Both the position numbers and the translations under genes were made by a program. Below the pieces are notes generated by a model, which worked only from the letters and a program-made list of their open reading frames with translations, did no database searches and had not been told where the DNA came from. Positions 2,442 through 27,990 of a DNA stretch of 35,863 nt are shown piece after piece (the stretch's first letter is position 1; each line of letters starts with the position of its first letter). This stretch comes from a virus. The stretch covers positions 1 through 35,863 of IMG/VR virus record IMGVR_UViG_3300017613_004202. One strand, written 5' to 3'.

Positions 2442-2453
2442 CCTGTCAAAAGG

Positions 2454-4355
2454 TCAGTCGTGATCGTCGAGAAACATGATTGTGCCGCCATGGGCGCCGG
2501 CCAGATCGGCGTTCATCGGTTCATTGGAAACAGCGTGCATGATCGCCCAGGCAATATCGCCGTGGCCAACGCCTTCGCTGCGCTGTGTGATATAGGTGAC
2601 CTGCTTGCCGCTGGGCGTGATCGACGGCTTGATGGCCATGAAGGCTTCCAGAACATCGGTATCGGCCCGGTCGAATTCGAAGCGGCCATTGCGAATCACG
2701 TTCTGCATTTTCAAGACCAGGGCCGATTTGGTCGCCACGCTGTAATCGATGCGCCTGACCGACGGGAACCATATCTTGATCAGTTCCCAGACCGCCTTGC
2801 CCATGCCGCCGGTGGTATCGACCGAAATATCGGTGACGTTGTACCGCGCGGCGACTTCCTTGACGCGGGCGCTCTGCCCGGCGAAATCTTCCCCGGTGAA
2901 GCGTATTTTTTCCAGCAAGCGGATTTTGCCGCCTGCCTTTTCCGGTGCCGCGAGGACGCTGATCGCCGCATCGTCGCGGCCTTGGTTGTTCGGATCGACG
3001 CCGATCCACACCGATTTGTCGCCATAGGGCCGCGCGCCCGGGATTTTGGTGAGCGCGGGCTTGAAATCCCGCCATTTGTAAAAGCTGTCGACCTGACATG
3101 GGGACAGCATGGCAAAGGGAAAGCTGGACTGACTGTCGTCCAGAAATTGACACAGATATTGATTGCGGAATTTTTCGACCGAATAGCGTCTTTCGACCGA
3201 GGCGCGATCGATCAGGTCAAAGCCTTGTGCAATAGCATCATCAAGCGTGACAATCTGTCGCCAGATCCCGTCGGCACCGCGAACGCCCTCTTTCAGAGCC
3301 TTGTGGCTGATATCAAAGCGGACCTGATCCTTTTTGGTGCGATCTCGGTTGTAATCGTCGCCGTTCCATTTTTTGTGCGCCGGATGGTTGATGGTCGAAG
3401 GTTTCGAGAAATAGGTGATCCGGTACCGCTTTTGCGAAGCCATTCCGGTCGCGGCATCATCAAAATCAGCAAAGCCGCCAACCCAGAAACATTCATCGAG
3501 ATAGACGTCGCCATTATAGCCCTGGGCGGTGCGGAAATTGGTCGCCAGAAACCGGAAATTGACCGGTGGCATCGGTTCGCCATCTTCATCTAACCGGTTA
3601 ATGGAGAGCGGTTTGCTGCCGGTGAGCTCCACTCCAGTCGCTTCACGCACGAAGTCGATGATATATTCGCGGAAGATCAGCGACTGATTTTGCGAAGCCG
3701 ACAGGAAAATCTGGTCATTGCCGGTGTCCATCGCCCGGATAAAGGCTTCCCGGGCCATATACCAGGTGGCACCGATCTGCCGAGATTTCAGGATGAACCG
3801 GATTGTCTCTTGGCTGGATTCCCACCATTTTTGCTGATGCGGATAGTTCTGTTCATGGAATAGCGAGCGGCATTGCTCGATCTGTTCAAAGGTCAGCTGG
3901 TTTTTCTTGGTCGCCCGCTTGGCCACCGCCTTTTCGTCATTCCGGGCCTTGATCTTGGGATTAAGGTCGGCTTCCTTGCCAGACTCGTTATATTTGCGGA
4001 TCCGCGCTGACCGCTCCATTTGCCGCATCCAGAAATCGACCCGTTTCATCTCGCCTTCGGTGATATCGGCCTTGTCGGCATAGGCGGCGACGCGGACCTC
4101 GATCCGGTCTTCGATAATCTGCACCGGCGAGGCATGATCCCACCGGTCGCGTTTCTTCCAGCTGGCGACCGTGGGCCGCTTGATCATCAGATCGTCGGCA
4201 ATTTGTTGGATTGTCCACCCACGCCAGTATAGCGAGCGCGCTTCGCGCCGATCATCGCGCATCGTTCTGTCGAAAGCGTTCAGCGGCGGCAGTTCGGCGT
4301 CATCGCCAATATCGGCAGCGCCGGAATGCGCAGGGGGTTTCATCGGTGCGTTCAT
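2454..4355 (-). CDS. P: Terminase large (ATPase) subunit (P2 gpP family)
   Basis: This is the packaging motor ATPase, 633 residues from the chosen start. An N-terminal helix-turn-helix (SLYWRGWTIQQIADDL, then PTVASWKKRD) binds DNA. The Walker A-like loop SRQIGAT lies at about 191-197 and the Walker B motif VYLDE has its Asp near 287. The C-terminal half carries the RNase H-like part, with WIGVDPN followed by DTTGG. The frame is open from ATG 4385, but that start overlaps the inferred late promoter, whose -10 would lie near 4385-4390. I therefore prefer ATG 4355 or 4343. P-Q forms the leftward late unit, divergent from O. Confidence 0.95.
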   Translation of the reverse strand: MNAPMKPPAHSGAADIGDDAELPPLNAFDRTMRDDRREARSLYWRGWTIQQIADDLMIKRPTVASWKKRDRWDHASPVQIIEDRIEVRVAAYADKADITEGEMKRVDFWMRQMERSARIRKYNESGKEADLNPKIKARNDEKAVAKRATKKNQLTFEQIEQCRSLFHEQNYPHQQKWWESSQETIRFILKSRQIGATWYMAREAFIRAMDTGNDQIFLSASQNQSLIFREYIIDFVREATGVELTGSKPLSINRLDEDGEPMPPVNFRFLATNFRTAQGYNGDVYLDECFWVGGFADFDDAATGMASQKRYRITYFSKPSTINHPAHKKWNGDDYNRDRTKKDQVRFDISHKALKEGVRGADGIWRQIVTLDDAIAQGFDLIDRASVERRYSVEKFRNQYLCQFLDDSQSSFPFAMLSPCQVDSFYKWRDFKPALTKIPGARPYGDKSVWIGVDPNNQGRDDAAISVLAAPEKAGGKIRLLEKIRFTGEDFAGQSARVKEVAARYNVTDISVDTTGGMGKAVWELIKIWFPSVRRIDYSVATKSALVLKMQNVIRNGRFEFDRADTDVLEAFMAIKPSITPSGKQVTYITQRSEGVGHGDIAWAIMHAVSNEPMNADLAGAHGGTIMFLDDHD

Positions 4356-4403
4356 CGAGCGTTGCCATGCACCGAAGACCCGCACCTTTACCTTAGCGCG
4401 CTG

Positions 4404-4424
4404 TTGTAAGCGCGCGACTTACAA
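4404..4424. promoter_or_regulatory. Late activator (Ogr-type) site between divergent P and O
   Basis: The sequence is a perfect inverted repeat, TTGTAAG-N7-CTTACAA, extended by one G/C pair on each side (4403-4425). It recurs before J and V. P2 late promoters carry a TGT-N12-ACA activator site; here the spacing is TGT-N13-ACA. Rightward, CATGAT at 4438-4443 is a possible -10 about 26.5 bases from the centre. Leftward, TAAAGG at 4390-4385 has the same spacing but is a weaker match. One site may serve both directions. Confidence 0.8.
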
Positions 4425-4518
4425 CATGACCCCGTTGCATGATCAGTCAAATTTCGGCCCCAAGGCGTCATTGAACGGGAATATCCGTGCATCAACCGAA
4501 CTTTGGAGCTTCGAAGTC

Positions 4519-5367
4519 ATGAAAACCAAAAAATTCCTTCTCGCCACCGCAGGTTCCACCGTCGACGGCCGCACGATTGATGACAAGTTGATCACGGAAA
4601 TGGCCAGCTCCTACGATCCAAAGACGTATGGGGCGCGGCTCAATATCGAGCATATCCGCGGTCTTGGCACCGAAGGGCCGTTCCGCGCCTATGGCGATGT
4701 CCTGGAGCTTTCCACCGGTGAAGTGGAAGTGAATTTCAACGGCACCAGCGAAAAACGCCTTGGTCTGTACGGCATTTTTGATGTCGATGACTCGGCAAAG
4801 CAGCTGAATGATGCCGGTCAGAAAGTCTATCCATCGATCGAGATTGAGGACAATTTCGCGGGCAAGGGTTTCGCCTACATGATGGGCTGCGCCCTGACCG
4901 ACAGCCCCGCGGCTATCGGAACGGAACGGATGAAATTCAATCGCCATTATCCCGGCGCGATCAACCTGACCGCCGAAAATAGCGGCATCGACGCGGCCCT
5001 GCTGGAATTTGCCGAAGCCGACAAGGATGCAGAACCCGCCGCGACCGGATTTTTCGCCGCCGCCACTGATTTCTTCAAACAGTTCACGCCTGGCGAAAAG
5101 GAAAAACCACCGGTCATTGAACCTAAAAAGGATGATCAGCCCGCCGATCTGAATCAGTTCATCGGCCAGTTTTCGACCATGTTTGGTGACTTTGCCAAGA
5201 AAGTTGATGACGGCTTTGCCGCCCAGGCCAAGGCGACGACCGAAGCCCTTGGCAAGGTTGATGCCCGCTGCACCGAATTGTCGAACAGCATCGAAACCAC
5301 CGAAAATCCGGGCCAGCAAAAGCGCGGCCCATCCAATGGAGACAATCTCACCAAGACCGATTGCTAA
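4519..5367 (+). CDS. O: Capsid scaffold and maturation protease (P2 gpO family)
   Basis: The protein has 282 residues. gpO acts as internal scaffold and as the serine protease that trims the capsid proteins. The catalytic triad known for P2 (Asp19, His48, Ser107) appears as D16 (TVDGR), H45 (NIEHIRG) and S106 (VYPSIE), nearly the same spacing. The C-terminal part from about residue 190 is rich in charged residues and alanine, as expected for the scaffold helix. The ATG at 4519 starts the conserved MKTKKF block. The frame is open far upstream, but that part overlaps the divergent P gene and the late promoter. First gene of the rightward late unit, with a leader of about 70 bases. Confidence 0.93.
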   Translation: MKTKKFLLATAGSTVDGRTIDDKLITEMASSYDPKTYGARLNIEHIRGLGTEGPFRAYGDVLELSTGEVEVNFNGTSEKRLGLYGIFDVDDSAKQLNDAGQKVYPSIEIEDNFAGKGFAYMMGCALTDSPAAIGTERMKFNRHYPGAINLTAENSGIDAALLEFAEADKDAEPAATGFFAAATDFFKQFTPGEKEKPPVIEPKKDDQPADLNQFIGQFSTMFGDFAKKVDDGFAAQAKATTEALGKVDARCTELSNSIETTENPGQQKRGPSNGDNLTKTDC

Positions 5368-5433
5368 CCCGTTCCGCCCGCATCGGATCAACCCAACCAC
5401 CTGACCCAAACGCCAGTTACTAAGGAACAAAAA

Positions 5434-6555
5434 ATGCTTAGAGCCACCCGCCAACTTTTCACCGCTTATGTCTCCCAGATCGCATTGCTGAACGGGATCA
5501 GTGCGGCGGAAGTATCGACGAAATTCGCGGTCGATCCATCGGTCGAACAGAAACTCGAAGAACGGATGAAGGAATCGAGTGAATTCCTGACCGCGATCAA
5601 CATGGTTCCGGTGACCCAGCAAAGCGGCGAGAAAGTCGGCGTTGAGGCAACCCGGACGATCGCGGGCCGTACCGACACCAGCGGCGGCACCAAGCGCAAT
5701 CCGACGGATCCGACCGATACCACGGATCAGCACGGCTATTTCTGCCGCCAGACCAATTATGACTGGGCGATCCGCTATGCCAAGATGGACGCCTGGCGTC
5801 ACAAGCCCAATTTTCAGGAATTGCTGCGCAACGCCATCCTGAAACAGCAGGCCCGCGACCGGATCATGATCGGTTTCAACGGCACCAGCGCCGCCGCGAC
5901 CACGGATCGTGATGCCAATCCGATGCTTCAGGACGTCAACAAAGGCTGGCTGCAGCATATTCGGGAAGATGCGCCCGCGCATGTGCTGGACGACGGATCG
6001 CTGACCGTATTGACCGATGGCAACAATGATCCCGCAGTCAAAGCCATCTATGTAAAGGCAGGCGCGACGCTGTACGATGAGTCACTGGACAATAGCACGG
6101 ATGGCGAAGCCGACTATAGTTCGCTCGATGCTCTGGTACTCGACGCGAAGTCGCTGATCGAGGAATGGCATCGCGGCGACACCGATCTGGTCGTGATTGT
6201 TGGCCATGATCTGGTCGATGACAAATATTTCAACATCGCCCAGACCAGCGGCTCGACCGCCACCGAAGTTGAGGCAACCGACCGCATCATCCGTTCTGAC
6301 AAGCAGCTGGGCGGCTTGCCAGCGGTCCGGGTGCCGTTTTTCCCCGCCAATGCGATCCTGATCACCCGGCTCGATAACCTGTCGATCTATTGGCAGGAAG
6401 AAACCCGCCGCCGGATGATCAAGGACGAACCGGAACTGGACCGCGTGGCCAACTTCGAAAGCGTCAACGAAGATTATGTCGTCGAGGAATATGACATGAT
6501 TTCCCTTGTCGAAAATATCGTCATCGGCGCGGCACCTGCTCGCACCGCCGCCTGA
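5434..6555 (+). CDS. N: Major capsid protein precursor (P2 gpN family)
   Basis: The protein has 373 residues, close to P2 gpN. It builds the T=7-type head shell after N-terminal trimming by gpO. Family features are the N-terminal RQLFTAYVSQIALLNGI block, FLTAINMVPV, and the central FCRQTNYDWAIRYAKMDAW segment. The C-terminal half has DLVVIVGHDLVDDKYF and the strands around QLGGLPAVRVPFFPANAILIT. A good ribosome site (AAGGA) precedes the ATG. It stands between protease O and terminase M, the canonical order. A strong hairpin follows at 6604-6633. Confidence 0.95.
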   Translation: MLRATRQLFTAYVSQIALLNGISAAEVSTKFAVDPSVEQKLEERMKESSEFLTAINMVPVTQQSGEKVGVEATRTIAGRTDTSGGTKRNPTDPTDTTDQHGYFCRQTNYDWAIRYAKMDAWRHKPNFQELLRNAILKQQARDRIMIGFNGTSAAATTDRDANPMLQDVNKGWLQHIREDAPAHVLDDGSLTVLTDGNNDPAVKAIYVKAGATLYDESLDNSTDGEADYSSLDALVLDAKSLIEEWHRGDTDLVVIVGHDLVDDKYFNIAQTSGSTATEVEATDRIIRSDKQLGGLPAVRVPFFPANAILITRLDNLSIYWQEETRRRMIKDEPELDRVANFESVNEDYVVEEYDMISLVENIVIGAAPARTAA

Positions 6556-6603
6556 TCCTGAAGCCATAACCGTGAGCCGAATACCAGCTATGGCCAATAA
6601 ACC

Positions 6604-6633
6604 GGGATGATGCCGCTGGAGAGGCATCATCCC
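6604..6633 (+). terminator. Perfect 11-bp hairpin between N and M
   Basis: Arms 6604-6614 and 6623-6633 pair perfectly around an 8-base loop. No T run follows, so full termination is unlikely. It may be an attenuator or a 3' stabiliser that raises capsid mRNA relative to downstream messages. The ribosome site for M (AAAGGA) follows 5 bases later, so it could also affect initiation of M. Confidence 0.5.
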
Positions 6634-6650
6634 AACTAAAGGAAAACCGC

Positions 6651-7418
6651 ATGACCAGCCTTGCCCGCCGCACCCGCGAAAAGAAACTGGCAGCAATGCT
6701 TGGCACGTCCGCCCCCGGAAGCGCCAGCGGCGTTGCTGCCCCGATGCCGGAAACCGGAAAACAGGTTTCGGAATACAATAATTTGCGAGCATCGCTGGAC
6801 AATGATCTGCGCGAAATCAGCGATATTCAATCGATCGAGGCGCGAAACCCGGTCAAGGTCAAGAAAATGGCGAGTTATATCGACTGGGTTTCCGGTGCGA
6901 TTGATGCTGGCAAAGATCAGGATGGCAAGCCGGGGACAGCGGTACAGGACGAAATCGTTGTCACCATGATGATCTGGGCCATCGATGTCGGTGCCTATGA
7001 ACTGGGCTTGGAAATCGCCGAACATTGCCTGAAACACGGTCTGGCCTTGCCGGAACGTTACAACCGATCGCTAGGTTGTTTTGTGGCCGAGCAGATTGCC
7101 GAACAGGCGCTGGCCGCTGATAGCGAAGTGCCGCTGGCGGCGCTGGTGCTGACTGATACGCTGACCGACAAGGCCGATATGCCGGACCAGGCCCGCGCAA
7201 AGCTGATGAAGGCATTGGGCCGAGGCTATCTGGATGCTGCCGAGAATTTCGACGCGGAATCCGACAATGCGGTGGCCGGCGGAAAACCGGCCCTGGCAAC
7301 GGCGGCGCTGAACCATTTCAAGCGGGCACTGGCGCTGAACACAAAATCCGGGGTCAAAACCAACATCCGGGACACCGAAAAGATGCTCAAGGATCTGGGC
7401 GGCGGTACCGAACAGTAA
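6651..7418 (+). CDS. M: Terminase small (endonuclease) subunit (P2 gpM family)
   Basis: The protein has 255 residues. With P it cuts cos and delivers DNA to the prohead in P2-like phages. Family features are the N-terminal LARRTREKKLA block, the VMMIWAIDVGAYELGLEIAEHCLKHGLALP-like region in the middle (about 105-130), and the C-terminal DTEKMLKDLGG. ATG 6651 has AAAGGA upstream. Canonical position between N and L. Its presence implies packaging from a cos site, which I could not locate by eye. Confidence 0.92.
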   Translation: MTSLARRTREKKLAAMLGTSAPGSASGVAAPMPETGKQVSEYNNLRASLDNDLREISDIQSIEARNPVKVKKMASYIDWVSGAIDAGKDQDGKPGTAVQDEIVVTMMIWAIDVGAYELGLEIAEHCLKHGLALPERYNRSLGCFVAEQIAEQALAADSEVPLAALVLTDTLTDKADMPDQARAKLMKALGRGYLDAAENFDAESDNAVAGGKPALATAALNHFKRALALNTKSGVKTNIRDTEKMLKDLGGGTEQ

Positions 7419-7419
7419 G

Positions 7420-7533
7420 ATGAATAAGGCTCGCCCACGGCGCTCGGGGGGCGATGTTGACGGAATTCCAAGGCCTCTCCTTGCGAATGACCGTCACCAT
7501 CTCACCCCCCGTAAAAATATCGACTGGCAGTAG
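7420..7533 (+). CDS. Possible 37-aa mini-ORF in the M-L gap
   Basis: An ATG two bases after the M stop opens a 37-codon frame ending in TAG at 7531-7533, nearly filling the 132-base gap before L. The peptide is basic, rich in Arg, Pro and Asp, with no motif that I recognise. No clear ribosome site is present apart from coupling to the M stop. It may be a chance frame or a remnant. Confidence 0.2.
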   Translation: MNKARPRRSGGDVDGIPRPLLANDRHHLTPRKNIDWQ

Positions 7534-7550
7534 AGTGAAAGGCGGATATT

Positions 7551-8060
7551 GTGACCAATCTTGTTTCGACGCCGCCTGATCCCGTCACGCCGGAAGCGAC
7601 AATATTGGAAGTCGATGGCTGGTTTCCCCCGATCGATGTCGCCGCGATCCGCGATACGTTGCGGGTTGGAGAGGGCATCGTCACCGCCGAACGTATGATT
7701 GCAGCGGTGGAAGGCGCGGTATTGACCGCGCTGCAGGCGCTGTCGCTATGGCGCGCCATCCATGCGACGGCGGGCATCGCGAAACTGGACGACATAGTGG
7801 ATATCAATATCGGCGAGCGCACCCGCCCACTGGTACTTTGGGACCGGATCATCCGCTATTATACGGGGGCCGAGCTGGCCGACAATCATCGCGATATCAC
7901 CGCCACCAGCGACGGCCGCGACCGGGCCGATGCAGAGAACCTCACAGCCGATGAATATCGCCGCCAGGCACATAATGCGGTGGCCGATCTGCTGTCGATC
8001 GGGGTTGCCGGCGATAACGCGCATCTGCCGGTCGCGCGCAATGTGGTGGATCTGATCTGA
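7551..8060 (+). CDS. L: Head completion/stabilisation protein (P2 gpL family)
   Basis: The protein has 169 residues. It closes the filled head beneath the portal. The family is recognised by the N-terminal GWFPPIDVAAIRDTLRVG segment, the alternating helical middle and the C-terminal DLLSIGVAGDNAHLPVARN region. The start is GTG 7551, with AGGCGG about 6 bases upstream. The stop overlaps the start of X by one base, indicating translational coupling. Confidence 0.9.
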   Translation: MTNLVSTPPDPVTPEATILEVDGWFPPIDVAAIRDTLRVGEGIVTAERMIAAVEGAVLTALQALSLWRAIHATAGIAKLDDIVDINIGERTRPLVLWDRIIRYYTGAELADNHRDITATSDGRDRADAENLTADEYRRQAHNAVADLLSIGVAGDNAHLPVARNVVDLI

Positions 8061-8281
8061 TGCCTGCCATGTTTGAAGTGACCGCGCATAAAGGGGACAC
8101 CGTCGACGCTCTGTGCTGGCGCCACCTGGGCCGCACGGCGGGTGTCACCGAACAGGCCATAGCGCTCAACCCCGGCCTTGCCGCCAGTGGGCCGATCCTG
8201 ACCGAAGGGCAGCCAGTGACCCTGCCAGAAGCCGTCGATGCCGCACCATCGATCCGCGAAACCGTGAATTTGTGGGATTAG
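8060..8281 (+). CDS. X: Tail protein X (P2 gpX, LysM-like)
   Basis: This small protein of 73 residues matches P2 gpX, a LysM-like tail component needed for tail completion. The opening FEVTAHKGDTVDALCWRHLG, followed by ALNPGLAASGPILTEG, is typical of the LysM-type fold (GDT, then NPGL and the G-PIL-EGQ turn). The ATG overlaps the last base of the L stop. The next gene begins 2 bases after its stop. Confidence 0.9.
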   Translation: MPAMFEVTAHKGDTVDALCWRHLGRTAGVTEQAIALNPGLAASGPILTEGQPVTLPEAVDAAPSIRETVNLWD

Positions 8282-8283
8282 AA

Positions 8284-8601
8284 ATGTCTGCGTTAAGTGA
8301 CGAACTGAAAGATTATATCAATGACCGTGACAAATCGGTCGAGCAACGGGTCAAATTCTGGGTCGTGGGCGCGGCTTTGACCAATGTCATGGCGCTGCTC
8401 CCGGTGATATTTTTTCTGGGTGGCATCTACCAAAACGCCAACGCCTCTTTGGATCTGCTGAAATCACAGCAGACCGAATTGGCTCAGCGCGGGCTGTGGA
8501 TGCAGGATCGCGAGCGGTTTGAACTGGCGATCGAACTGTGGGCTGAACCGAAGGGCTTTAAGCCGCCCAAATATACTCGGCGCGGGAGTGAATCAAAATG
8601 A
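8284..8601 (+). CDS. Small membrane protein of the lysis cassette, possible holin partner
   Basis: The protein has 105 residues, with an acidic/basic N-terminal helix (1-25), a hydrophobic segment at about 26-48 (WVVGAALTNVMALLPVIFFLGG) and a charged cytoplasmic-type C-terminal helix. I do not recognise a named family. Its position directly before the holin-like gene and endolysin points to a role in timing of lysis, for example as an antiholin or second holin, but this is inference. The ATG at 8284 is 2 bases after the X stop. Its TGA overlaps the next ATG (ATGA). Confidence 0.75.
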   Translation: MSALSDELKDYINDRDKSVEQRVKFWVVGAALTNVMALLPVIFFLGGIYQNANASLDLLKSQQTELAQRGLWMQDRERFELAIELWAEPKGFKPPKYTRRGSESK

Positions 8602-8813
8602 AACTGGTCCCCTATTGGAAACAAGGATGGCGGTTCATTTCGGTCCGCTGTGCCGTGGCCCTGGGCATCTGGAACATGGTGCCGGATGTGCTGATGAACT
8701 TCGTTTCTGATCACGCGAATATCGCCGTGTCCGCAATATTGCTCGCTGGCACGATCATTGGTCCATTTTTGCAGCAAGACAAGGTGAAGGAGGCCGACCA
8801 TGGCGACGAATAA
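8598..8813 (+). CDS. Holin-like membrane protein
   Basis: The protein has 71 residues. It resembles small alphaproteobacterial phage holins: a basic N-terminus, one hydrophobic segment around residues 16-34 and a second at about 42-57 (AVSAILLAGTIIGPFL), ending in LQQDKVKE. Holins form membrane lesions that set lysis time or depolarise the membrane and release SAR endolysins. It overlaps the upstream gene by ATGA and the endolysin start by 14 bases. The call rests on topology and position. Confidence 0.7.
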   Translation: MKLVPYWKQGWRFISVRCAVALGIWNMVPDVLMNFVSDHANIAVSAILLAGTIIGPFLQQDKVKEADHGDE

Positions 8814-9423
8814 ACAAAAGGGCGCGGTTGGCGGATTGGGGCTGATCGGCCTGATCATCGCCGCCGTCGTGACGGTCGAAGGTGGCTTTGTAGATAATCC
8901 GAATGATCCGGGCGGTGCAACCAATCATGGTATCACAGAACAGGTCGCGCGTGACAACGGGTTTGTCGGGCGGATGCAGGATTTAAGCCAGGCAGAAGCG
9001 ATCAACGTCTATGCGCAGCAATATATCGAACGGCCCGGCTATGCTCCGTTGGTCGAAATCGACTTCTGGTTTGCCGAGGAAATTATCGACGCGGGCGTCA
9101 ATGCCGGTCCTTCCCGCGCAAGTCGCTGGGCGCAAGAAAGCCTGAACCATTACAATCGCGGCGGTCAGGATTATCGCGACATCGCCGAAGATGGCCGGTT
9201 TGGGACGGGCAGCATCACTGCCTATCGCGCATTGCAGCGAAAGCGAGGTAAAAAGACCGCCTGTGAATTGATGGTGAAGGCCGTCGATGCGAAGCAGGCC
9301 CAGCATTATATGCGGCTCGCAGGTTCCAACAGCAAATTTGAAACCTTCATGCCGGGCTGGATGCGGACCCGCATCGGCAATGTCGATCAATCGAAATGCG
9401 GCACGGTTCCGCCGTTGCAATAG
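8800..9423 (+). CDS. SAR-type endolysin, glycoside hydrolase family 108 muramidase
   Basis: The protein has 207 residues. The catalytic block VEGGFVDNPNDPGGATNHGIT is the GH108 signature, with E27 the expected catalytic acid. The C-terminal part carries the usual DAGVNAGPSRASRW segment and the peptidoglycan-binding region (YRALQRKRG). Residues 8-26 form a weakly hydrophobic stretch rich in Gly, Ala and Ile with no signal peptidase site, a signal-arrest-release signature. The enzyme would be tethered inactive in the inner membrane until depolarisation. A strong AAGGAGG ribosome site lies at 8787-8793. It occupies the place of P2 gene K. Confidence 0.9.
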   Translation: MATNKQKGAVGGLGLIGLIIAAVVTVEGGFVDNPNDPGGATNHGITEQVARDNGFVGRMQDLSQAEAINVYAQQYIERPGYAPLVEIDFWFAEEIIDAGVNAGPSRASRWAQESLNHYNRGGQDYRDIAEDGRFGTGSITAYRALQRKRGKKTACELMVKAVDAKQAQHYMRLAGSNSKFETFMPGWMRTRIGNVDQSKCGTVPPLQ

Positions 9424-9426
9424 AAA

Positions 9427-9443
9427 TTCCGGTGAAACCGGAA
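9427..9443 (+). other. Short hairpin after the endolysin gene
   Basis: TTCCGGT and ACCGGAA pair around GAA, directly after the endolysin stop. There is no T tract. It may protect the 3' end or be incidental. Confidence 0.3.
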
Positions 9444-9483
9444 AGGCGCCGCGCCTATCAGCGGCATTATTGGAGCACCACCT

Positions 9484-9648
9484 ATGAAACTTATTTCAGC
9501 CTTCATCTGTATCGCCGTCGCCGCTCTTGCACTGATCGGCACATTTTTAGTTTCCACTTTGCCTGGCCTATTCGCTTCGGCGACGAATTTTCAGTGGCAA
9601 GTCAATCCTCGTTCGATCATCCAAACCCGCCGGATGGGTTTGGCTTAA
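9484..9648 (+). CDS. 54-aa hydrophobic peptide in the lysis cassette
   Basis: A short frame from ATG 9484 to TAA 9646-9648 encodes 54 residues. The N-terminus is a strong signal/transmembrane helix (residues 3-28, MKLISAFICIAVAALALIG onward), followed by a short polar tail ending in TRRMGLA. It lies between endolysin and i-spanin. The ribosome site is GGAGCACC shortly before the ATG. No family is recognised. It may be a small holin, an antiholin or a regulatory membrane peptide. Confidence 0.5.
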   Translation: MKLISAFICIAVAALALIGTFLVSTLPGLFASATNFQWQVNPRSIIQTRRMGLA

Positions 9649-9665
9649 GTCCAGCATTAGAAACC

Positions 9666-9689
9666 TTGGCGGGGCTACGGTCCCGCCAA
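9666..9689 (+). other. Perfect 8-bp hairpin before the i-spanin gene
   Basis: TTGGCGGG (9666-9673) and CCCGCCAA (9682-9689) enclose an 8-base loop. The ribosome site of the spanin gene (GGAG) follows directly. It resembles the hairpins before M and E, and may tune translation or message decay. Confidence 0.4.
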
Positions 9690-9703
9690 TTGGAGATCGG
9701 ATC

Positions 9704-10123
9704 ATGATCGAAAAAATCAAAGCTCTTGGCCCGATCTCATGGATTGTTACCCATTGGCATGTTGTTTTGGGCATCGCCGGCGCTTTGGTGCTTTCGCATA
9801 CCGCCACCTATTTCATTGGCCGGGGGCATGGTGCGGACAGCGCCTTGGTCGATACCGCCAGGGCGGGTCAGAAGGCCAATGACGTGGCGGTGGCCAGTTC
9901 CGGACAGGCTGCAGCGGAAGCGGAAATCGACAGCGCCAATATCAGCCAGGACAAGGAGAAAGCAGATGCCGCAATTCGGTCCACTCAATCGGGTGCTACA
10001 AAGCCTACTGTTGCCAGCGATGCTCTTAATTGTGAGCGGCTGCGACGATCGGGTCAAAATCTCGACCGGTTTCCCGCCTGCCAATCTGGTGCGGGTGAAA
10101 CCGGAGCCGGTACCGGGTCCTGA
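9704..10123 (+). CDS. Rz: Inner-membrane spanin (Rz-like)
   Basis: The protein has 139 residues. A single N-terminal transmembrane segment lies at about 18-38 (VVLGIAGALVLSHTATYFIG), followed by an Ala/Glu/Lys/Asp-rich periplasmic region that can form a coiled coil (about 45-95). This is the architecture of i-spanins, which pair with an outer-membrane lipoprotein to fuse the two membranes in the last step of lysis. The identity is strengthened by the overlapping o-spanin frame. The ATG has GGAG 8-10 bases upstream. Confidence 0.8.
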   Translation: MIEKIKALGPISWIVTHWHVVLGIAGALVLSHTATYFIGRGHGADSALVDTARAGQKANDVAVASSGQAAAEAEIDSANISQDKEKADAAIRSTQSGATKPTVASDALNCERLRRSGQNLDRFPACQSGAGETGAGTGS

Positions 10124-10283
10124 AGTCTTTACCAGCGATGAAGCGGCGCAGCTGTTCAACAGCACGATGGATGAATGGGGCCGTGAAGGATGGTCCCGTA
10201 TCGGCATGATTTGCCGCGATGCCACGCGCAAGGGTGCGCTTTATCCCGACAAATGGTGCCCGGAAGCACCGAAGGCGGATTGA
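9966..10283 (+). CDS. Rz1: Outer-membrane spanin lipoprotein (Rz1-like), embedded start
   Basis: The protein has 105 residues. It begins inside Rz in another frame and continues 160 bases past it. Residues 1-25 form a lipoprotein signal (LLLPAMLLIVSG) with the lipid-attachment Cys at C26 in the lipobox VSGC. A proline-rich region follows (GFPPANLVRVKPEPVPGP), typical of Rz1. AAGGAG at 9952-9957 is a good ribosome site, 8 bases before ATG 9966. The extension past about residue 55 (AAQLFNSTMDEWGREGWS onward, with two Cys) is longer than in lambda Rz1. The stop overlaps the gpR start by one base. Confidence 0.82.
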   Translation: MPQFGPLNRVLQSLLLPAMLLIVSGCDDRVKISTGFPPANLVRVKPEPVPGPEVFTSDEAAQLFNSTMDEWGREGWSRIGMICRDATRKGALYPDKWCPEAPKAD

Positions 10284-10801
10284 TGATCAAACCTGATGCC
10301 CTGCGCAAGGCCATAGAGGCCAGCAATCCGGCCCTCGCCCGCGATCCGGAGCGATTGCTGATGTTCATCGATCGGGGCAATGTCCGGTCATTCATGACCG
10401 CCGATTTCAGTTTCGAATATCGCTATACGCTGAACATCATCATCAGCGATTTTGCCGGGGACACTGCGTTGCTGATGATCCCGATCCTCTCCTGGCTGCG
10501 GATAAACCAGCCCGCCCTGCTGGCCCCTCCGACCGAGGCCCTGTCGTTTGAGGCGGATATATTGGACAATGGCTGCGCGGATATGTCGATCGAGCTGCAG
10601 CTGACCGAACAGGTAGCGGTGGTGCGGCGCGAAGACGGTGGATTTGACATGAACTATCTGCCGGAACCCGACAATCTGTTCGATGATGAACTGGGCGCGG
10701 GCGGCGTCGATCCGGTACCGGACCTGTCAGCAATCTATCTGAGCACGGGCGAAAAGCTGTTGCCCGATGAACCGCCGCTTGGATCCGATGTTCAACCATA
10801 A
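10283..10801 (+). CDS. R: Tail completion protein (P2 gpR family)
   Basis: The protein has 172 residues from ATG 10283. It begins MIKPDALRKAIEASNPALA, continues with DPERLLMFIDRGNVRSF, and has the FEYRYTLNIIISDFAGD and ILSWLRINQPALL blocks, all characteristic of gpR. gpR is needed for completing the tail and joining it to the head. The frame is open upstream to 10190, but the conserved N-terminus starts at 10283, coupled to the Rz1 stop. The stop overlaps the S start by one base. Confidence 0.92.
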   Translation: MIKPDALRKAIEASNPALARDPERLLMFIDRGNVRSFMTADFSFEYRYTLNIIISDFAGDTALLMIPILSWLRINQPALLAPPTEALSFEADILDNGCADMSIELQLTEQVAVVRREDGGFDMNYLPEPDNLFDDELGAGGVDPVPDLSAIYLSTGEKLLPDEPPLGSDVQP

Positions 10802-11280
10802 TGACTGATGATCTGGAAGCTCTGGAACCATGGCTGGGCGATGTGCTGGACAGCCTTGGCTCCGGACCGAAGCGCCGCCTGTCACTGAAAATCGGTCAGG
10901 CAATCCGTCGCACCAATGCGGCTCGGATCGCCAAGAACGAAGAGCCTGATGGCCGGGCCATGAAACCGCGAAAGCCGCGCAAGCGCAGATCGGCAAAGTC
11001 TGGCAGAGTGAAGCGCAAGGCAAAGATGTTCCGCAAACTTCGCCTGGTGCGCAATATGCGCCTGCGCACCAATGCCGAAGGCGTCGAACTGTCGTTCAAT
11101 GGTGGTCCCGCCAGCGTGGCAGCCGAGCATCATTATGGTGAGGAAGCCTTTGTCGGCAAGACCCGTGACGGCCGCACGATCAAGGCGCGGATGGCGCAGC
11201 GCAAACTATTGGGCTTTAGCCGGGATGACCAGGATGCGATTATTGATGCGGTGGCGGAGCATCTTTCACCGAAGGTATGA
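10801..11280 (+). CDS. S: Tail completion/virion morphogenesis protein (P2 gpS family)
   Basis: The protein has 159 residues. It shows the family pattern LEPWLGDVLDSLGSGPKRRLSLKIGQAIRRTNAARI-like N-terminus, a basic middle (RKPRKRRSAKSGRVKRKAK), FRKLR and a C-terminal RKLLGFSRDD motif typical of gpS. It acts with R at the head-proximal end of the tail. Last gene of the O-to-S late unit. The next late operator begins 14 bases after the stop. Confidence 0.9.
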   Translation: MTDDLEALEPWLGDVLDSLGSGPKRRLSLKIGQAIRRTNAARIAKNEEPDGRAMKPRKPRKRRSAKSGRVKRKAKMFRKLRLVRNMRLRTNAEGVELSFNGGPASVAAEHHYGEEAFVGKTRDGRTIKARMAQRKLLGFSRDDQDAIIDAVAEHLSPKV

Positions 11281-11294
11281 GCAGATTTCTTGCG

Positions 11295-11315
11295 TTGTAA
11301 GCAGCCCGCTTACAA
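11295..11315. promoter_or_regulatory. Late activator (Ogr-type) site and promoter before J
   Basis: This second copy of TTGTAAG-N7-CTTACAA has two extra paired bases on each side (11293-11317, 25 bases), the most extended of the three. AATAAT at 11330-11335 is a good -10 match, centred about 27.5 bases from the operator centre. Transcription would start near 11342, giving a leader of about 20 bases before the J start. There is no recognisable -35 hexamer; the operator takes its place. Confidence 0.82.
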
Positions 11316-11361
11316 CGCAGCCGCCTTTCAATAATGTCAGGCCGTCTGCCATCGGCGGTTC

Positions 11362-12264
11362 ATGGTTTCATCAATCGCCACATCCCCTGCCGTTGACCTT
11401 TCGGGCCTTCCCGCGCCGGTCCTGATCGATCAGCCGGATTTCGAAAGCCGCAATGGGGCAAAGCTCGCGCGGCTGATCGAATTGTTGCCCGAATTCACCG
11501 CCCTGGTCGAAAGCGACCCTGCGATAAAGCTGATCGAGGCGGATGCCTATGACGAAATGGTGTTGGCGCAGGCGTTCAATGATGCGGCCCGCAATCTGTT
11601 GCTGGCCTATGCCGCTGGCGGGTCTCTCGACCATCTGGGCGCGTTGATGGATGTCGCGCGCCTGGAACTGATTCCGGCCAATGAAGTGACTGGCGATCCG
11701 GCGGTGATGGAAAGCGACGATGACTTTCGCCGCCGGATCCTGATCGCCCCGCACAGTTTTTCGGTGGCGGGACCGCAGCTCGCCTATGTCTATCACGCCA
11801 GAAGCGCCAGCGCCGATGTGCTCGATGCTTCCGCAACCTCGCCCTCACCCGGCGAAGTCGTTGTTTCAATCCTTTCCCGCACCGGGGATGGAACCGCACC
11901 GCCCCAGACATTATCGGCGGTCGAAGCGGTTCTAACGCATGACGAAGTCAGGCCACTGACCGACAATGTGACGGTGCAAAGCGCGGATATTGTCGATTTC
12001 AATGTGACGGCAGACCTGTTTTTATATGCCGGACCGGACAGCGGGCTGATCATACAGGTCGCAACATCCGCGCTTGATCTTTACCTGGCCGACAATCGCC
12101 GACTGGGCCGCGACATCACACGTGCCGGTATTATCGCCGCTCTCAAGGTCGCGGGGGTGCAAAATGTCATCCTGACCGAACCGGGCGCGGATTTGGCCCT
12201 GACCGATCTGCAGGCGGGAAATGCCGCCAATATCAATCTGACCAATGCCGGGAATGCGGAATAG
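11362..12264 (+). CDS. J: Baseplate wedge protein (P2 gpJ family)
   Basis: The protein has 300 residues. It aligns by eye with P2 gpJ: VDLSGLPAPVLIDQPDFES near the N-terminus, then LIELLPEF, ESDPAIKLIEADAYDEMVLAQAFNDAAR-like helix and the LLAYAAGGSLDHLGA turn at about 80-95. A block DDDFRRRILIAPHSFSVAG follows near 116-135. J builds the edge of the baseplate with I and W. ATG 11362 has CGGCGG upstream. Unlike P2, where V and W precede J, this gene is first in its unit, immediately after a late operator. Confidence 0.93.
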   Translation: MVSSIATSPAVDLSGLPAPVLIDQPDFESRNGAKLARLIELLPEFTALVESDPAIKLIEADAYDEMVLAQAFNDAARNLLLAYAAGGSLDHLGALMDVARLELIPANEVTGDPAVMESDDDFRRRILIAPHSFSVAGPQLAYVYHARSASADVLDASATSPSPGEVVVSILSRTGDGTAPPQTLSAVEAVLTHDEVRPLTDNVTVQSADIVDFNVTADLFLYAGPDSGLIIQVATSALDLYLADNRRLGRDITRAGIIAALKVAGVQNVILTEPGADLALTDLQAGNAANINLTNAGNAE

Positions 12265-12267
12265 ACG

Positions 12268-12921
12268 ATGGCGCTTGATCCGGAAATCACCGCCAAATCC
12301 CTGTTGCCGCCCAACACGTCGGATGCGGAACATGCGCTGGAGGACAGCTTGCGCATGGATGTCGACCTGTCGGCGGTCGGAACTTTGTGGGATCCGGCAA
12401 CCTGTCCGGCGGGGGTGTTGCCCTTTCTGGCTTGGGGACTGGCGATATCGCGATGGGATGCGGCATGGAGCGAGGCCGAAAAGCGCGCCGCCATTGCCGA
12501 TGCCATCCCTTTTCACAAGCGCAAGGGCACCCGGGCGATCGTGATCGAAGTGCTGGAACGGTTCAATCCGCTGCTCGAAGTCGTGGAATGGTGGGAAATG
12601 AACCCAAAGGCCACCCCTCACACCTTTGAGGTTCGCGCGCCGGCCAATCTGATTCCCGCAAGTTTTTTGAACGCGGAAACGGTCGATGCAATCATCCGCG
12701 ATGTCGCGGGTGTCAAGCCGGTTCGGTCCCATTTCACCTTTGTCCAATATCTGGAAGCACAGGCCGGGGCCTATCTCACCAGCTCAGCCCAAGTCGGCAG
12801 CTATTCCCGACACGATTATGCGGCGTCCCATGATCCCGATCCGATCTGGCAAAATTATCTGCAGACCGAAGATGGCGAGCCACTTGAAAACGAAGATGGT
12901 CAATTGTTGGAGCAAAGCTGA
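12268..12921 (+). CDS. I: Baseplate/tail protein I (P2 gpI family)
   Basis: The protein has 217 residues. Diagnostic blocks are LLPPNTSDAEHALE, LWDPATCPAGVLPFLAWGL, and HKRKGTRAIVIEVLERF. P2 gpI sits at the outer baseplate and connects to the tail fibres. The C-terminal end (from about 165) is specific to this phage and ends in an acidic near-repeat, EDGEPLE then EDGQLLE. The ATG is 3 bases after the J stop. The TGA overlaps the first base of H. Confidence 0.92.
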   Translation: MALDPEITAKSLLPPNTSDAEHALEDSLRMDVDLSAVGTLWDPATCPAGVLPFLAWGLAISRWDAAWSEAEKRAAIADAIPFHKRKGTRAIVIEVLERFNPLLEVVEWWEMNPKATPHTFEVRAPANLIPASFLNAETVDAIIRDVAGVKPVRSHFTFVQYLEAQAGAYLTSSAQVGSYSRHDYAASHDPDPIWQNYLQTEDGEPLENEDGQLLEQS

Positions 12922-13952
12922 TGCCCGGATTGTTGATGACGATCACCGATGCGGGCCTTGATGCCCTGGTAGATGCCGAAGGCGGTGGCAGCGATGATAT
13001 CGTCATCGCGGAACTGGGCCTGACCGACCAGATATTCGTAATGGCGCCGACACTGACCGCACTGCCCGGTGAGTATAAGCGACTGGATTCCATATCTGGT
13101 GAAGCGGTCAGCGACAATATCATCCATCTGACCGCCTATGATGTCAGCGCCGAGATTTACGACGTCACCGGTTTTGGCCTCTTTCTGGAAGATGGCACAT
13201 TGTTCGCCGCTTTTAGTTCCGATGCAGATCCAGTCCTGTCCAAGGCGGCGCTGGCACTGGGCCTGTTTTCGCTCGATATAAGTTTCGACAACAGCAACGC
13301 CGCCAATATCACCTTTGGCACATCCATATTCAGCTATCCGCCGGCCAGCAAGACGATCAAGGGTGTGGCTGAGCTCGCCGATGATGATGAAGCTGACGCT
13401 GGTGTTGATGATCTGCGGATTATGACCCCCAAAATGGTGAAGCGATTGATCGATGCTTATGCTCAAAGCGTTGTGAACAAGATCATCCCGCCGCGCTGCC
13501 CAATTGCATGGTATCCCGAAAGCGCATTGGATCCCGTGCCGACCGGTTGGCTACTGTGTGATGGAGAGAATGGAACGCCAGATTTACGAGATCGGTTCGT
13601 TGTCGGTGCGGGCGCGGAATTCGATCAGGGGACCACCGGCGGAAGCAAGATCCACCAGCACGCCGGTACAATAGCGGGCCATGCTCTCACTATTGATCAA
13701 ATGCCAAGCCACCGGCATTTAAATGTTGTTCCGGGCATTTCCAATAACGCTTTGGGCGCAGGAAATTCCCTGAGCGAACAAAGAACAGCGGGCGGTGACA
13801 CCGAATATGTATTGAATTCCGCAGCTGCGGAACCATCGATCGGCCGCACCAGCGCCGTTGGCGGTAATCAGGCTCATAGCCATGGTATCGCGATCGACAA
13901 TGTTAATCACTTGCCGCCTTATTACGCGCTTGCCTATATCATCAAAATCTGA
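12921..13952 (+). CDS. H: Tail fibre protein (P2 gpH-like N-terminus, tail-collar C-terminus)
   Basis: The protein has 343 residues, about half the length of P2 gpH. The N-terminal 150 residues match the gpH anchor that docks on gpI (LLMTITDAGLDALVDAE, LSFDNSNAANITFG-like region, STIKGVAELADDDEA-like linker). The C-terminal part is a tail-collar/fibre-tip domain: IAWYPESALDPVPTGWLLCDG, TPDLRDRFVVGAG, then QMPSHRH and NHLPPYYALAYIIKI. SHRH and AHSHG supply histidine pairs like the metal-binding HxH motifs of fibre tips. It probably adsorbs to the host surface together with the following tailspike. There is no gpG-type fibre chaperone next to it. Confidence 0.85.
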   Translation: MPGLLMTITDAGLDALVDAEGGGSDDIVIAELGLTDQIFVMAPTLTALPGEYKRLDSISGEAVSDNIIHLTAYDVSAEIYDVTGFGLFLEDGTLFAAFSSDADPVLSKAALALGLFSLDISFDNSNAANITFGTSIFSYPPASKTIKGVAELADDDEADAGVDDLRIMTPKMVKRLIDAYAQSVVNKIIPPRCPIAWYPESALDPVPTGWLLCDGENGTPDLRDRFVVGAGAEFDQGTTGGSKIHQHAGTIAGHALTIDQMPSHRHLNVVPGISNNALGAGNSLSEQRTAGGDTEYVLNSAAAEPSIGRTSAVGGNQAHSHGIAIDNVNHLPPYYALAYIIKI

Positions 13953-13979
13953 GGGTAAAATCTCGCCGAAGGATATATA

Positions 13980-16082
13980 ATGAGTAAAATTAGCGATCTC
14001 GATCCCGCAGAAAGTCTGTCAGGAAACGAAAGTATTCCGGTTGTTCAAAATGGCATCACAAAGCGCGCGCTCTTCGGCGGCGTTGCTGCCGCTATGACGC
14101 CATTACTGACGGGAATTGCCAAGGGTGATCCAGGTCCTGTGTCAAACACCTACACCAGTCTGGAGGATTTTAAGGCGCAGGATGTTACAAACATCGTTGC
14201 AACTCTGGTCCTGAATGATCGGCGCACAGATTATAGCCGCGTCACGACCGATGAAAGTCAGAACCCTGTCGCAATCGCGTCGAATACTCCTGGTTATTAC
14301 TGGATTCCCCAATCAAGTGAGTCCGTCACATTCCTCGCAGCTGTTGCGGCTGTCAGACGGGATCTGGACGCCAAACTTCGTGAGATCGAGGTAAATATCA
14401 ATGACTTTGGCGCGGTACCGGACGACATAACAAAAGCAGCCGCAAACCACACCGCGTTCATCAAGGCCAGAAATTTCGCGCTAAACCGCCAGCTCGGAAA
14501 TGGTTTGGAAGGAAATATTCGACTGGTTGCGGGAAACGGGGAATATTTCTTCGATGGCGACAAGCCTATTTTCATGCCCAATCGAACCGACATGCTCGCT
14601 CTCCCAGGGAATTATCGGTATCGCCGCGGTATTACTTTTGAAGGGCGTGGTCGGCGAAGCACAATATTTACATTGCTGCCCGGGACCAACGGTGACCGCT
14701 ATTTTTACGATACCTATGATTCCAATTACCCAGGTTTAACGGTCGAAACCGGGGACACGGGCGTTGCAGATTTCATCAATTTTCGTGGTATGACGTTGCG
14801 CGGAGCCCCTGGCATGGCCACCCGTGCAGAGGGAACCAAAACCGGTGGATTTCGGTTTAAGACCTTCGGCTGGGAAAAATTTATCACTTGGTCCGATTTT
14901 GATATGGAGTATCTGGACTCGTGTTTCGAACTCGAAGGCTATGGCAACTGCGACCGCAATCGACTGAACAATGTTCGCATCTCGCACATCCGAGACCGCG
15001 TGTTCTATTTCAACAACAACCAGGCTGTCAGCTGGCTGCTCACAGGCGTGGATGCCGATGATTTACACGGGCATTGTATAGAAATCGGGCCGGAAGGCGG
15101 CGGCGACCTCCAATGGTTGACTGGAACGGTTTCCTTCTACGCAGAGGTCGATGACGCTGGTGTCGAACTGCCTACCCAACGCCAGAAAGCTTTTATATAT
15201 TGGGACAACAGTGGCAAAGCGACTGGCGCGACCAGTGGTCCCGGAAACAATAAATACACCTTACGTCAAATTAGAGCGGAAATTTATTCCGATAGCCAGG
15301 CACTGGTTTACACAAAGCGTGACGAAGAAACATCTTATGGCAGCCTGGATATAGTATTCGAGGATTGTCCGCTGCCGATGGCCTTTACAGATGCCGGAGC
15401 TGAAACCAGAATTCCAGGCTATCGGGCGGTTCGGCTGGAAAACCGCACGTCGGTAAAATTCCTGCGATCGCAAGTAACCAGCAGCTTTGAATATGAATGT
15501 GCCAAACACGATCCATCCATCACGTTTGAAGATGTCGAATATCTCAATGAAGTGCCCATTGCCGATACAAATATGCTTGCTGGCAAATGCTTTATCACCG
15601 GCGGGCAAGGCACAATCACCGGTCGGCGAATAAAAACCCAACGCAACGTCGCAATCGGCTCGTACAATACGGTGATCGCTGCAGATTTTACCAAAGGTTT
15701 TCAGGGTCTGAGCGACATCAAATGCAGTGTCCAGGGTAAAGATATTCTGCACGGTTGGCCGCAAAATGGGGCGCTCGGTTCAATCAAAACCTACTTCCCA
15801 GAGGGTTCCGTTATTACAGACATTTTGATCAACAAGCCGGCAGAGGTAGTCGCCACTCCCATTGCCGACTATGCTTTGGAGGTTCAGAATAGCGCAGCTG
15901 CCGTATTGCTAAATACCGGCGGACAGAGTCAGAACTTGGCAATATTGAAACGCGTCGCTCTTGCTGATCCACAAATCATTCCCGCTGCGCCCAACAACTT
16001 TTTCGAACTTGTTCCAAAAGGCGCCAATGCAAACGTGCTTTTCACCAACAAATCGGGTGGTCTGTATTATGAATATTATTGA
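13980..16082 (+). CDS. Putative tailspike with right-handed beta-helix (pectate-lyase-like)
   Basis: The protein has 700 residues. The N-terminal region of about 130 residues is probably the virion anchor (ISDLDPAESLSGNESIPVVQ is a common tailspike start). At about 138-165 the motif NINDFGAVPDDITKAAANHT marks entry into a pectate-lyase/GH28-type beta-helix. Many spikes of this kind cleave or bind surface polysaccharide. Beta-rich text continues to about residue 560, followed by a smaller C-terminal domain that probably trimerises or contacts glycan. Catalytic residues cannot be assigned by eye. The gene is visibly more AT-rich than its neighbours, as expected for a host-range gene gained by transfer. 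AAGGAT lies before ATG 13980. Confidence 0.8.
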   Translation: MSKISDLDPAESLSGNESIPVVQNGITKRALFGGVAAAMTPLLTGIAKGDPGPVSNTYTSLEDFKAQDVTNIVATLVLNDRRTDYSRVTTDESQNPVAIASNTPGYYWIPQSSESVTFLAAVAAVRRDLDAKLREIEVNINDFGAVPDDITKAAANHTAFIKARNFALNRQLGNGLEGNIRLVAGNGEYFFDGDKPIFMPNRTDMLALPGNYRYRRGITFEGRGRRSTIFTLLPGTNGDRYFYDTYDSNYPGLTVETGDTGVADFINFRGMTLRGAPGMATRAEGTKTGGFRFKTFGWEKFITWSDFDMEYLDSCFELEGYGNCDRNRLNNVRISHIRDRVFYFNNNQAVSWLLTGVDADDLHGHCIEIGPEGGGDLQWLTGTVSFYAEVDDAGVELPTQRQKAFIYWDNSGKATGATSGPGNNKYTLRQIRAEIYSDSQALVYTKRDEETSYGSLDIVFEDCPLPMAFTDAGAETRIPGYRAVRLENRTSVKFLRSQVTSSFEYECAKHDPSITFEDVEYLNEVPIADTNMLAGKCFITGGQGTITGRRIKTQRNVAIGSYNTVIAADFTKGFQGLSDIKCSVQGKDILHGWPQNGALGSIKTYFPEGSVITDILINKPAEVVATPIADYALEVQNSAAAVLLNTGGQSQNLAILKRVALADPQIIPAAPNNFFELVPKGANANVLFTNKSGGLYYEYY

Positions 16083-16201
16083 CGGATTTTCTACAAGCGG
16101 ATCAGAGCTAGATTCCGCCTAACTGTCTGATCGAGCCAAATCACAGGTGAATTTTGGACCGCACTGCCCACCGCAATTTCTTGAGATACGCAACACGATA
16201 A

Positions 16202-16222
16202 TTGTAAGCGGGATACTTACAA
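16202..16222. promoter_or_regulatory. Late activator (Ogr-type) site and promoter before V
   Basis: This third copy of TTGTAAG-N7-CTTACAA lies in the 170-base gap between tailspike and V. CATATT at 16236-16241 is a possible -10 (4 of 6), centred about 26.5 bases away, the same geometry as at O and J. Transcription would begin near 16248. It should drive V, W, FI, FII, E, T, U and D. Before it, GATCAGA and TCTGATC (about 16099 and 16125) form a weak inverted repeat. Confidence 0.8.
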
Positions 16223-16252
16223 CATCAGACACTAACATATTGTCCGTCAGTG

Positions 16253-16870
16253 ATGCTTATCGACGGCATGAATGTGTCGACCCCTATTGCGGAAGATATT
16301 CCCCTCGATCCCGATTCCTTGCTACGCATGGGGACGGTGCTGTCTGTGGATCTGGAGAAGGCGCGATGTGTCGTCCAGATCGGAGATCCAGAGGCCGGCG
16401 CGATCGAAACTCCGGATATAAGGTGGGGCGCTGGCCGGGTTGGCAAGACCCGCATCTGGATGCCGCCGGTTGTGGATGAACAAGTTCTGGTTGCGTTTCC
16501 CGCCGGGGAATTGGCTGCCGGCGTGATCATCGCTTCCATCCCCCGCGATATATTCCCCGCTGCGGGTGATTCCCCGGCTGATCTGATCGCCTTTGAAGAC
16601 GGCGCAATACTGTCCTACGACGTAGAAACAACGACTCTGGTGGCGCAATTGCCCGAAGGCGGATCCATAGTTGTCACTGCGCCTGGTGGTGTATTGATCG
16701 ATGCCCAAGACGGCGTGACAATCGATGGTCCGGTGACAATCAACGGTGATGTCGGCGTCACCGGCACCATCACCGCCAGTGACGATGTCACCGCCGCCGG
16801 CATCAGCCTCAAAGAGCATCTGCACGGCAATGTCGCCGCCGGTTCGGCGAAGACTGGATTACCGGAATGA
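16253..16870 (+). CDS. V: Baseplate central spike (P2 gpV family)
   Basis: The protein has 205 residues from ATG 16253. It is the membrane-piercing spike at the tail tip. It has the OB-fold N-terminal half (MGTVLSVDLEKARCVVQIGD, RTRIWMPPVVDEQVLVAFP-like block) and a C-terminal beta-helix with GGSIVVTAPGGVLIDAQDGVTIDGPVTINGDVGVTG-type repeats. It ends at the apex motif EHLHGNV, whose HxH binds iron in known spikes. GTG 16250 and ATG 16268 are alternatives. If the inferred promoter is right, 16268 would leave a normal leader. In P2 this gene precedes W and J; here it follows the tailspike. Overlaps W by ATGA. Confidence 0.92.
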   Translation: MLIDGMNVSTPIAEDIPLDPDSLLRMGTVLSVDLEKARCVVQIGDPEAGAIETPDIRWGAGRVGKTRIWMPPVVDEQVLVAFPAGELAAGVIIASIPRDIFPAAGDSPADLIAFEDGAILSYDVETTTLVAQLPEGGSIVVTAPGGVLIDAQDGVTIDGPVTINGDVGVTGTITASDDVTAAGISLKEHLHGNVAAGSAKTGLPE

Positions 16871-26514: not shown

Positions 26515-26601
26515 GTAACGACCTTGGCAAATATGGTTGATGGTTGTGCCATTAAATATAGTTGTTGACATGTAGCAACTTTGGTTGTTACTCCCGCAAC
26601 C
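26515..26601. promoter_or_regulatory. Divergent immunity control region with repressor/Cro operators
   Basis: Two inverted repeats lie side by side: AGTTG...CAACT (26560-26580) and GGTTG...CAACC (26583-26601). Both contain GTTGTT and GCAAC half-sites with inner gaps of 8 and 6 bases. Two more GGTTG words occur at about 26535-26546 nearer the repressor. TTGACA at 26565-26570 lies inside the first repeat and could be the -35 of the rightward promoter; the matching -10 is poor. Repressor bound here would block the early operon. Confidence 0.65.
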
Positions 26602-27646: not shown

Positions 27647-27990
27647 ACGCGCAAAGCGCACTTGTCGCAGCCGACACGCCAACCAAGGCGGAAGGCAAGC
27701 ACAGCGGCCAGATCCGGCAGCAATGCCCTATCTGCCATGACCGCGCGCGCATCCGTCACAGCATCCGCGTGACGCCGGCGGTCATCGATTATTATGTGCA
27801 GTGCATGAACGTCGATTGCGGCGCGACTTGGAAAGCCCAGATGAACATCGTTTACATGCTGTCACCCAGCGCGATCGACAATCCGGAAATCGACATTCCG
27901 ATGGCGCCCGACAACGTGCCGCGCAAAACATTTCCGCCACCGGGCACCGATCCACCAGACCCCCGGCAGATCGCCATGTTCGACCAGTAA
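27643..27990 (+). CDS. ogr: Late gene transcription activator, Ogr/Delta family
   Basis: The protein has 115 residues from ATG 27643. It carries CPIC, then 22 residues, then C-MNVD-C: the exact C-X2-C-X22-C-X4-C zinc site of P2 Ogr and P4 Delta. The following WKAQMNIVYMLSPS resembles the Ogr helix after the finger. An N-terminal extension of about 25 residues and a Pro-rich C-terminus make it longer than P2 Ogr (72 residues). It should bind the three TTGTAAG-N7-CTTACAA sites and recruit RNA polymerase. In P2 the gene follows D; here it is in the early operon, coupled to the CII-like gene. Confidence 0.92.
   Translation: MNAQSALVAADTPTKAEGKHSGQIRQQCPICHDRARIRHSIRVTPAVIDYYVQCMNVDCGATWKAQMNIVYMLSPSAIDNPEIDIPMAPDNVPRKTFPPPGTDPPDPRQIAMFDQ

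Follow-up and report, generated by a model that had tools for sequence, protein, structure and literature searches.

Genes and repeated dyads of the window

The window, i.e., the whole stretch of DNA analyzed here, is a complete IMG/VR virus record of 35,863 bases, so searching it for the operator covered phage sequence alone. It represents a P2-like phage whose genome has a single gene of the Ogr/Delta zinc-finger family. Pfam matches identify the terminase gene P on the reverse strand and the scaffold gene O on the forward strand, as well as the capsid gene N, the small terminase gene M, and L. P and O diverge around the first of three repeated dyads, with the portal gene Q and a D12 methylase gene to the left of P. 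The baseplate genes J and V follow the second and third dyads, respectively, and V is followed by the genes for sheath, tube, tape measure, and D. The early region encodes an S24 repressor, a CII-like protein, and the single Ogr_Delta zinc-finger protein, whose finger has the spacing C-x2-C-x22-C-x4-C; a search of PDB found no solved relative (best E=0.6). The late units, the candidate operators, and the activator gene are as follows.

1356..4355, reverse strand: late unit 1, P (terminase) and Q (portal)
4404..4424, unstranded: putative operator 1, TTGTAAGCGCGCGACTTACAA, common to the predicted P and O promoters, which diverge from it; P2 has its annotated shared activator site in the same place
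4519..11280, forward strand: late unit 2, O, N, M, L, and further ORFs up to 11280
11295..11315, unstranded: putative operator 2, predicted J promoter, TTGTAAGCAGCCCGCTTACAA
11362..16082, forward strand: late unit 3, J through the large ORF 13980-16082
16202..16222, unstranded: putative operator 3, predicted V promoter, TTGTAAGCGGGATACTTACAA
16268..23415, forward strand: late unit 4, V, sheath, tube, and T to D
27649..27990, forward strand: Ogr/Delta zinc-finger activator, PF04606, 45.4 bits against a cut-off of 26.3, E=8e-12

The original prediction held that a 21-bp site with identical arms occurs in triplicate, at the heads of the P/O, J, and V units, in a genome that also carries an Ogr-family gene. 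All of this was borne out: a pattern search of the window returned exactly three copies of TTGTAAG-N7-CTTACAA (4404-4424, 11295-11315, and 16202-16222), with 14 of 14 arm bases the same in all three, the gene neighbors agree with the proposed placement, and the Ogr_Delta ORF at 27649-27990 scores above the Pfam cut-off. That there is no further copy, previously judged by eye, holds at a tolerance of up to 3 mismatches, at which no fourth match appears anywhere in the window; at the same tolerance, 100 shuffled versions of the window contain 0.44 matches on average and never as many as three. A search of both strands of the entire record found the same three sites, and a reversed control pattern had no match on either strand. 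In operators 1 and 2, the arms are longer than the 14 shared bases (GTTGTAAG/CTTACAAC and TGCGTTGTAAG/CTTACAACGCA, respectively). Each predicted late promoter has a TGT...ACA dyad, the three being identical.

This regulon plan is already known from P2, Smp131, and phiRSY1. In P2, as predicted for the window, one activator site is common to the divergent P and O operons, and every other late operon has one site. The P2 dyad center lies ∼55 bp from the annotated pP and pO starts on either side, and the P2 record places the start of V transcription at the first base of V. P2 differs from the window in its V and F promoters (pP, pO, pV, and pF) and in an ogr gene adjoining int; the corresponding units of the window begin with J and V, and its ogr gene belongs to the early region. 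The half-sites differ as well, as does the TGT-ACA gap, which is 13 in the window and 12 in the published P2 consensus TGT-N12-ACA; the P2 sites themselves look poorer as dyads. The gap of 13 is no mark of the window operator, as the gap also varies among other P2-like phages. The Stenotrophomonas phage Smp131, with its predicted late promoters PP', PO', PJ', and PV', shares with the window the P/O, J, and V arrangement and an Ogr-like protein with the CX2CX22CX4C spacing, but its site, TGT-N12-ACA, lacks the extended TTGTAAG arm (PMC3931495). The Ralstonia phages phiRSA1 and phiRSY1 have an Ogr homolog and an extended dyad, TGTTGT-N13-ACAACA, before the late units, although both the half-site and the host group differ from those of the window phage (PMC5694545). 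The claim that the half-site is longer than the TGT/ACA of P2 stands with regard to the TTGTAAG arm itself, whereas extended half-sites as such had been reported for phiRSA1/phiRSY1. The operator specificity is new, in that it was not reported in the literature searched.

Dyads and predicted promoter geometry in related phages

A capsid query retrieved 67 viral and 20 genome loci, and three further queries added more. Operators were sought as repeated spaced palindromes, with no pattern given in advance, and by gene-anchored searches; the automated calls failed or returned noise at many GC-rich loci, such as a large part of the L18x-L22x group. In many relatives, O, J, and V (or FI) are each preceded by a copy of the phage's own dyad. 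Among the 52 phages compared, a set that was curated by hand from the automated calls and favors phages with clear dyads, the dyads are alike within a phage and widely different between phages. The half-sites include TGTAGAA, GGTAAC, TGTCGGG, CATTTGG, and TATGGAGAGG, as well as TCTTGTAGAA in Sphingomonas phages; further ones are GGGTAAC, GGTAGCA, GGTGGAA, GTGTCGGG, CATTGTGT, CAGTGTATCC, and CATTTCGCT. Most long P2-like records contain an Ogr_Delta ORF, usually a single one (37/46, 17/18, 26/29, 28/31, and 24/26). Two Ogr_Delta matches in one record were seen in L257 (G103), L186 (G069), and L382 (G150), lying close together in L257 and L186.

In six Sphingomonas-type loci (L033, L035, L045, L046, L048, and L068), an insertion lies between P and O, and the operator is doubled, with one copy beside each gene. 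This doubling supports the idea that the two promoters ordinarily share one dyad, which fits the earlier proposal of four transcripts from three sites.

As a reverse test, IMG/VR was searched with the 16-base form of the window operator, GTTGTAAG-N7-CTTACAAC. Of the 18 contigs matched, six (L470, L473, L477, L478, L479, and L480) are P2-like, and the site precedes P/O, J, or V in them; in the others, which are probably chance matches, no late gene among those tested is present. In the close relative L004/L480, the full set of three sites occurs, and a single arm of one site contains a mismatch. Another P2-like relative, Microcystis phage Mae-JY29 (PP438421.1), has a capsid protein 74% identical to that of the window; although recorded from a cyanobacterium, its true host may be an associated alphaproteobacterium.

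The positions of the promoter elements and start codons relative to the dyad centers of the window are listed below.

4353..4355, reverse strand: predicted P start codon, ATG, 59 bp from the operator 1 center
4435..4440, forward strand: −35-like TTGCAT of the predicted O promoter, beginning at +21 from the dyad center
4519..4521, forward strand: O start codon, 105 bp from the operator 1 center, which would leave a leader of ∼50 nt
11326..11331, forward strand: −35-like TTTCAA of the predicted J promoter, +21 from the dyad center
11362..11364, forward strand: J start codon, 57 bp from the operator 2 center
16233..16238, forward strand: −35-like TAACAT of the predicted V promoter, +21 from the dyad center, a weak match
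16268..16270, forward strand: predicted V start codon, 56 bp from the operator 3 center

The ATG at 4355 makes P shorter than the ORF that begins with GTG at 4385. V could start at 16250 or 16268, the in-frame ATG at 16268 being the more likely choice.

The same geometry recurs in the relatives. At 43 O-type sites, T, T, and G occupy +21, +22, and +23 in 100, 95, and 98%, respectively; at the J and V sites, T at +21 and G at +23 are retained in 80%, and a long-frame ATG falls at +54 to +60 in 53 of 61. On the P side, 42 long-frame ATGs were counted at +56 to +60 over the 52 phages, and the O starts lie mostly at about +86 to +128 from the dyad center. A −10 element at +24 to +30, considered initially, was dropped, as the profile over the relatives has TTG at +21 to +23, which fits a −35 element. 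No strong −10 element is visible. With a transcript start ∼56 bp from the dyad center, this TTG would be at −35, and little or no leader would precede the coding sequence in the P, J, and V mRNAs. The start codons and −35-like elements of the window are compatible in position with the rule of ∼55 bp from dyad to transcript start, and the distance from dyad to start codon would suit the annotated late promoters of P2, in agreement with the late-regulon reading of the original prediction. The recurrence of these distances suggests that predicted leaderless or nearly leaderless P, J, and V mRNAs are a property of the whole phage group.

Covariation of operators and Ogr proteins

The operators are in the late region, beside the capsid genes, and ogr is in the early region. 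Across the 52 phages, operator distance correlates with Ogr distance when capsid distance is controlled (partial Mantel r=0.39, p=2e-4), and it does not correlate with capsid distance when Ogr distance is controlled (r=−0.08, p=0.89), with the reservation that such tests may leave some shared ancestry in the operator-Ogr correlation. Dereplication to 41 Ogr clusters leaves r=0.33 (p=2e-4), and a phage's operator resembles that of its nearest neighbor by Ogr more closely than that of its nearest neighbor by capsid (Wilcoxon p=0.01). In the 20 phages that have a comparable primase gene next to ogr, operator distance still follows Ogr with primase controlled (r=0.20, p=0.013), and the reverse correlation, operator with primase given Ogr, is not significant.

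Because the Mantel tests are not fully rid of shared ancestry, natural phage pairs are of particular value. In the near-isogenic pair L005/L008, the DNA downstream of all three sites is 91 to 95% identical, and the half-sites differ by a single base, T to C at −9 (TGT to CGT). Where the two Ogr proteins are aligned, the differences are T12D, Q18E, and T57S; a few more lie N-terminal to the finger. In the pair L020/L021, the flanks downstream of the operators are 85 to 100% identical, yet all three operators differ; the ogr genes are 60% identical and the DNA upstream of them 96%, and the body of ogr has been replaced. Taken together, the comparisons indicate that the site is the phage's own putative Ogr site and that site and activator change together across ∼50 relatives. 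The original scheme of one activator, three sites, and four transcripts is supported accordingly, the repeated dyads of the relatives tracking their single Ogr and not the neighboring late genes.

Among the Ogr columns ranked by covariation, finger position 3 comes top and positions 12 to 14 are among the better ones; position 3 may mark a clade rather than a DNA contact. A simple rule, with Arg or Lys at finger position 12 reading G at −9, fits six phages whose Ogr proteins seem to form one clade, and is retained only as a lead. The distant relatives L478 and L470 have the exact half-site of the window together with different Ogr fingers (IRSS versus IRHS in the window), so more than one finger can read a given half-site, and the Ogr-operator code is not one-to-one.

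Predicted late regulon and alternative explanations

The three dyads can be regarded, with a probability of about 0.9, as the operators of the phage's late regulon, at which its Ogr protein is predicted to bind and activate transcription. Ogr, produced from the early region, would bind each 21-bp dyad, probably as a dimer, and recruit the host RNA polymerase to a promoter with a −35-like element starting 21 bp, and a transcript start ∼56 bp, from the dyad center. The symmetric operator 1 would drive P-Q leftward and the O unit rightward, operator 2 the J unit, and operator 3 the V-to-D unit. Transcription of P, J, and V is predicted to start on the start codon or within a few bases of it. The part of the half-site beyond the TGT core (TGTAAG in this phage) could serve as a phage-specific address that covaries with Ogr, and the finger residues ∼12 to 18 from the first cysteine are the best candidates for its reader.

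The genes for the S24 repressor, the CII-like CP76 protein, and YdaS are all present in the window, and the dyads could instead be operators of one of these proteins, with a role in silencing or timing the late genes. An imperfect palindrome near the repressor gene, GTAGCAAC-TTTG-GTTGTTAC (26572-26591, noticed by eye), even bears a faint resemblance to the late half-site. However, the late site has no counterpart in the repressor intergenic region at up to 3 mismatches, a CII-like relative was found beside ogr in just 8 of the 52 phages, the operator-Ogr correlation persists when the neighboring primase is controlled, and the dyads occupy the position of the Ogr-dependent promoters of P2, all of which makes such an assignment improbable. 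The palindrome itself, located between the S24 repressor gene and a YdaS-like gene and unlike the late sites, is a candidate immunity operator.

Still less probable is the binding of a host regulator whose site was adopted by the phage. The operator search covered the virus record alone, which leaves room for host copies, but operator types differ among related phages, and in L005/L008 and L020/L021 the operators differ along with the phage's own Ogr within near-identical flanks. Hardly more credit can be given to a purely structural function, such as that of terminators or of replication or packaging signals with no part in activation: the dyads are indeed intergenic palindromes between transcription units, but no T run follows them, their spacing to the downstream start codons is fixed, as is the phase of the −35-like TTG, and all sites within one phage have similar dyads, which differ from those of other phages.

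Ogr as the activator acting at the dyads remains the preferred reading. Ogr-type activators are classical, yet we found little published on their DNA code and, mainly in the open literature, no survey of Ogr operator diversity or of Ogr-operator co-diversification. The ∼50 natural activator/operator pairs, including L005/L008 with aligned Ogr stretches three residues apart, make this code directly testable and are a ready source of candidate orthogonal activators. They also pose the evolutionary question of how an activator and three distant sites shift specificity together. A worthwhile subject to follow is this co-diversification along with the predicted fixed leaderless geometry. At even odds, P2-like phages would hold many naturally diversified, matched Ogr/operator pairs read mainly by finger residues ∼12 to 18, in which one or two substitutions in that part of the finger can retarget the activator and the three operators switch together; throughout the group, three of the four late transcripts would lack a leader. 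P4 Delta and P2 Ogr, which cross-activate, belong to one protein family acting on one promoter class (PMC8628076). The question arises whether operator divergence shields the late genes from satellites or rival prophages; our guess is that it could limit cross-talk of the Delta/Ogr type.

Outside the late units, at 23489-25121, a DUF5131 gene follows D together with a convergent ORF (24228-25121) that has no Pfam match; lying between the late and early regions, the two are placed like a cargo pair. Two DNA methyltransferase genes are located near the ends of the record, D12 at 346-1308 on the reverse strand and N6_N4_Mtase at 33796-34713 on the forward strand.
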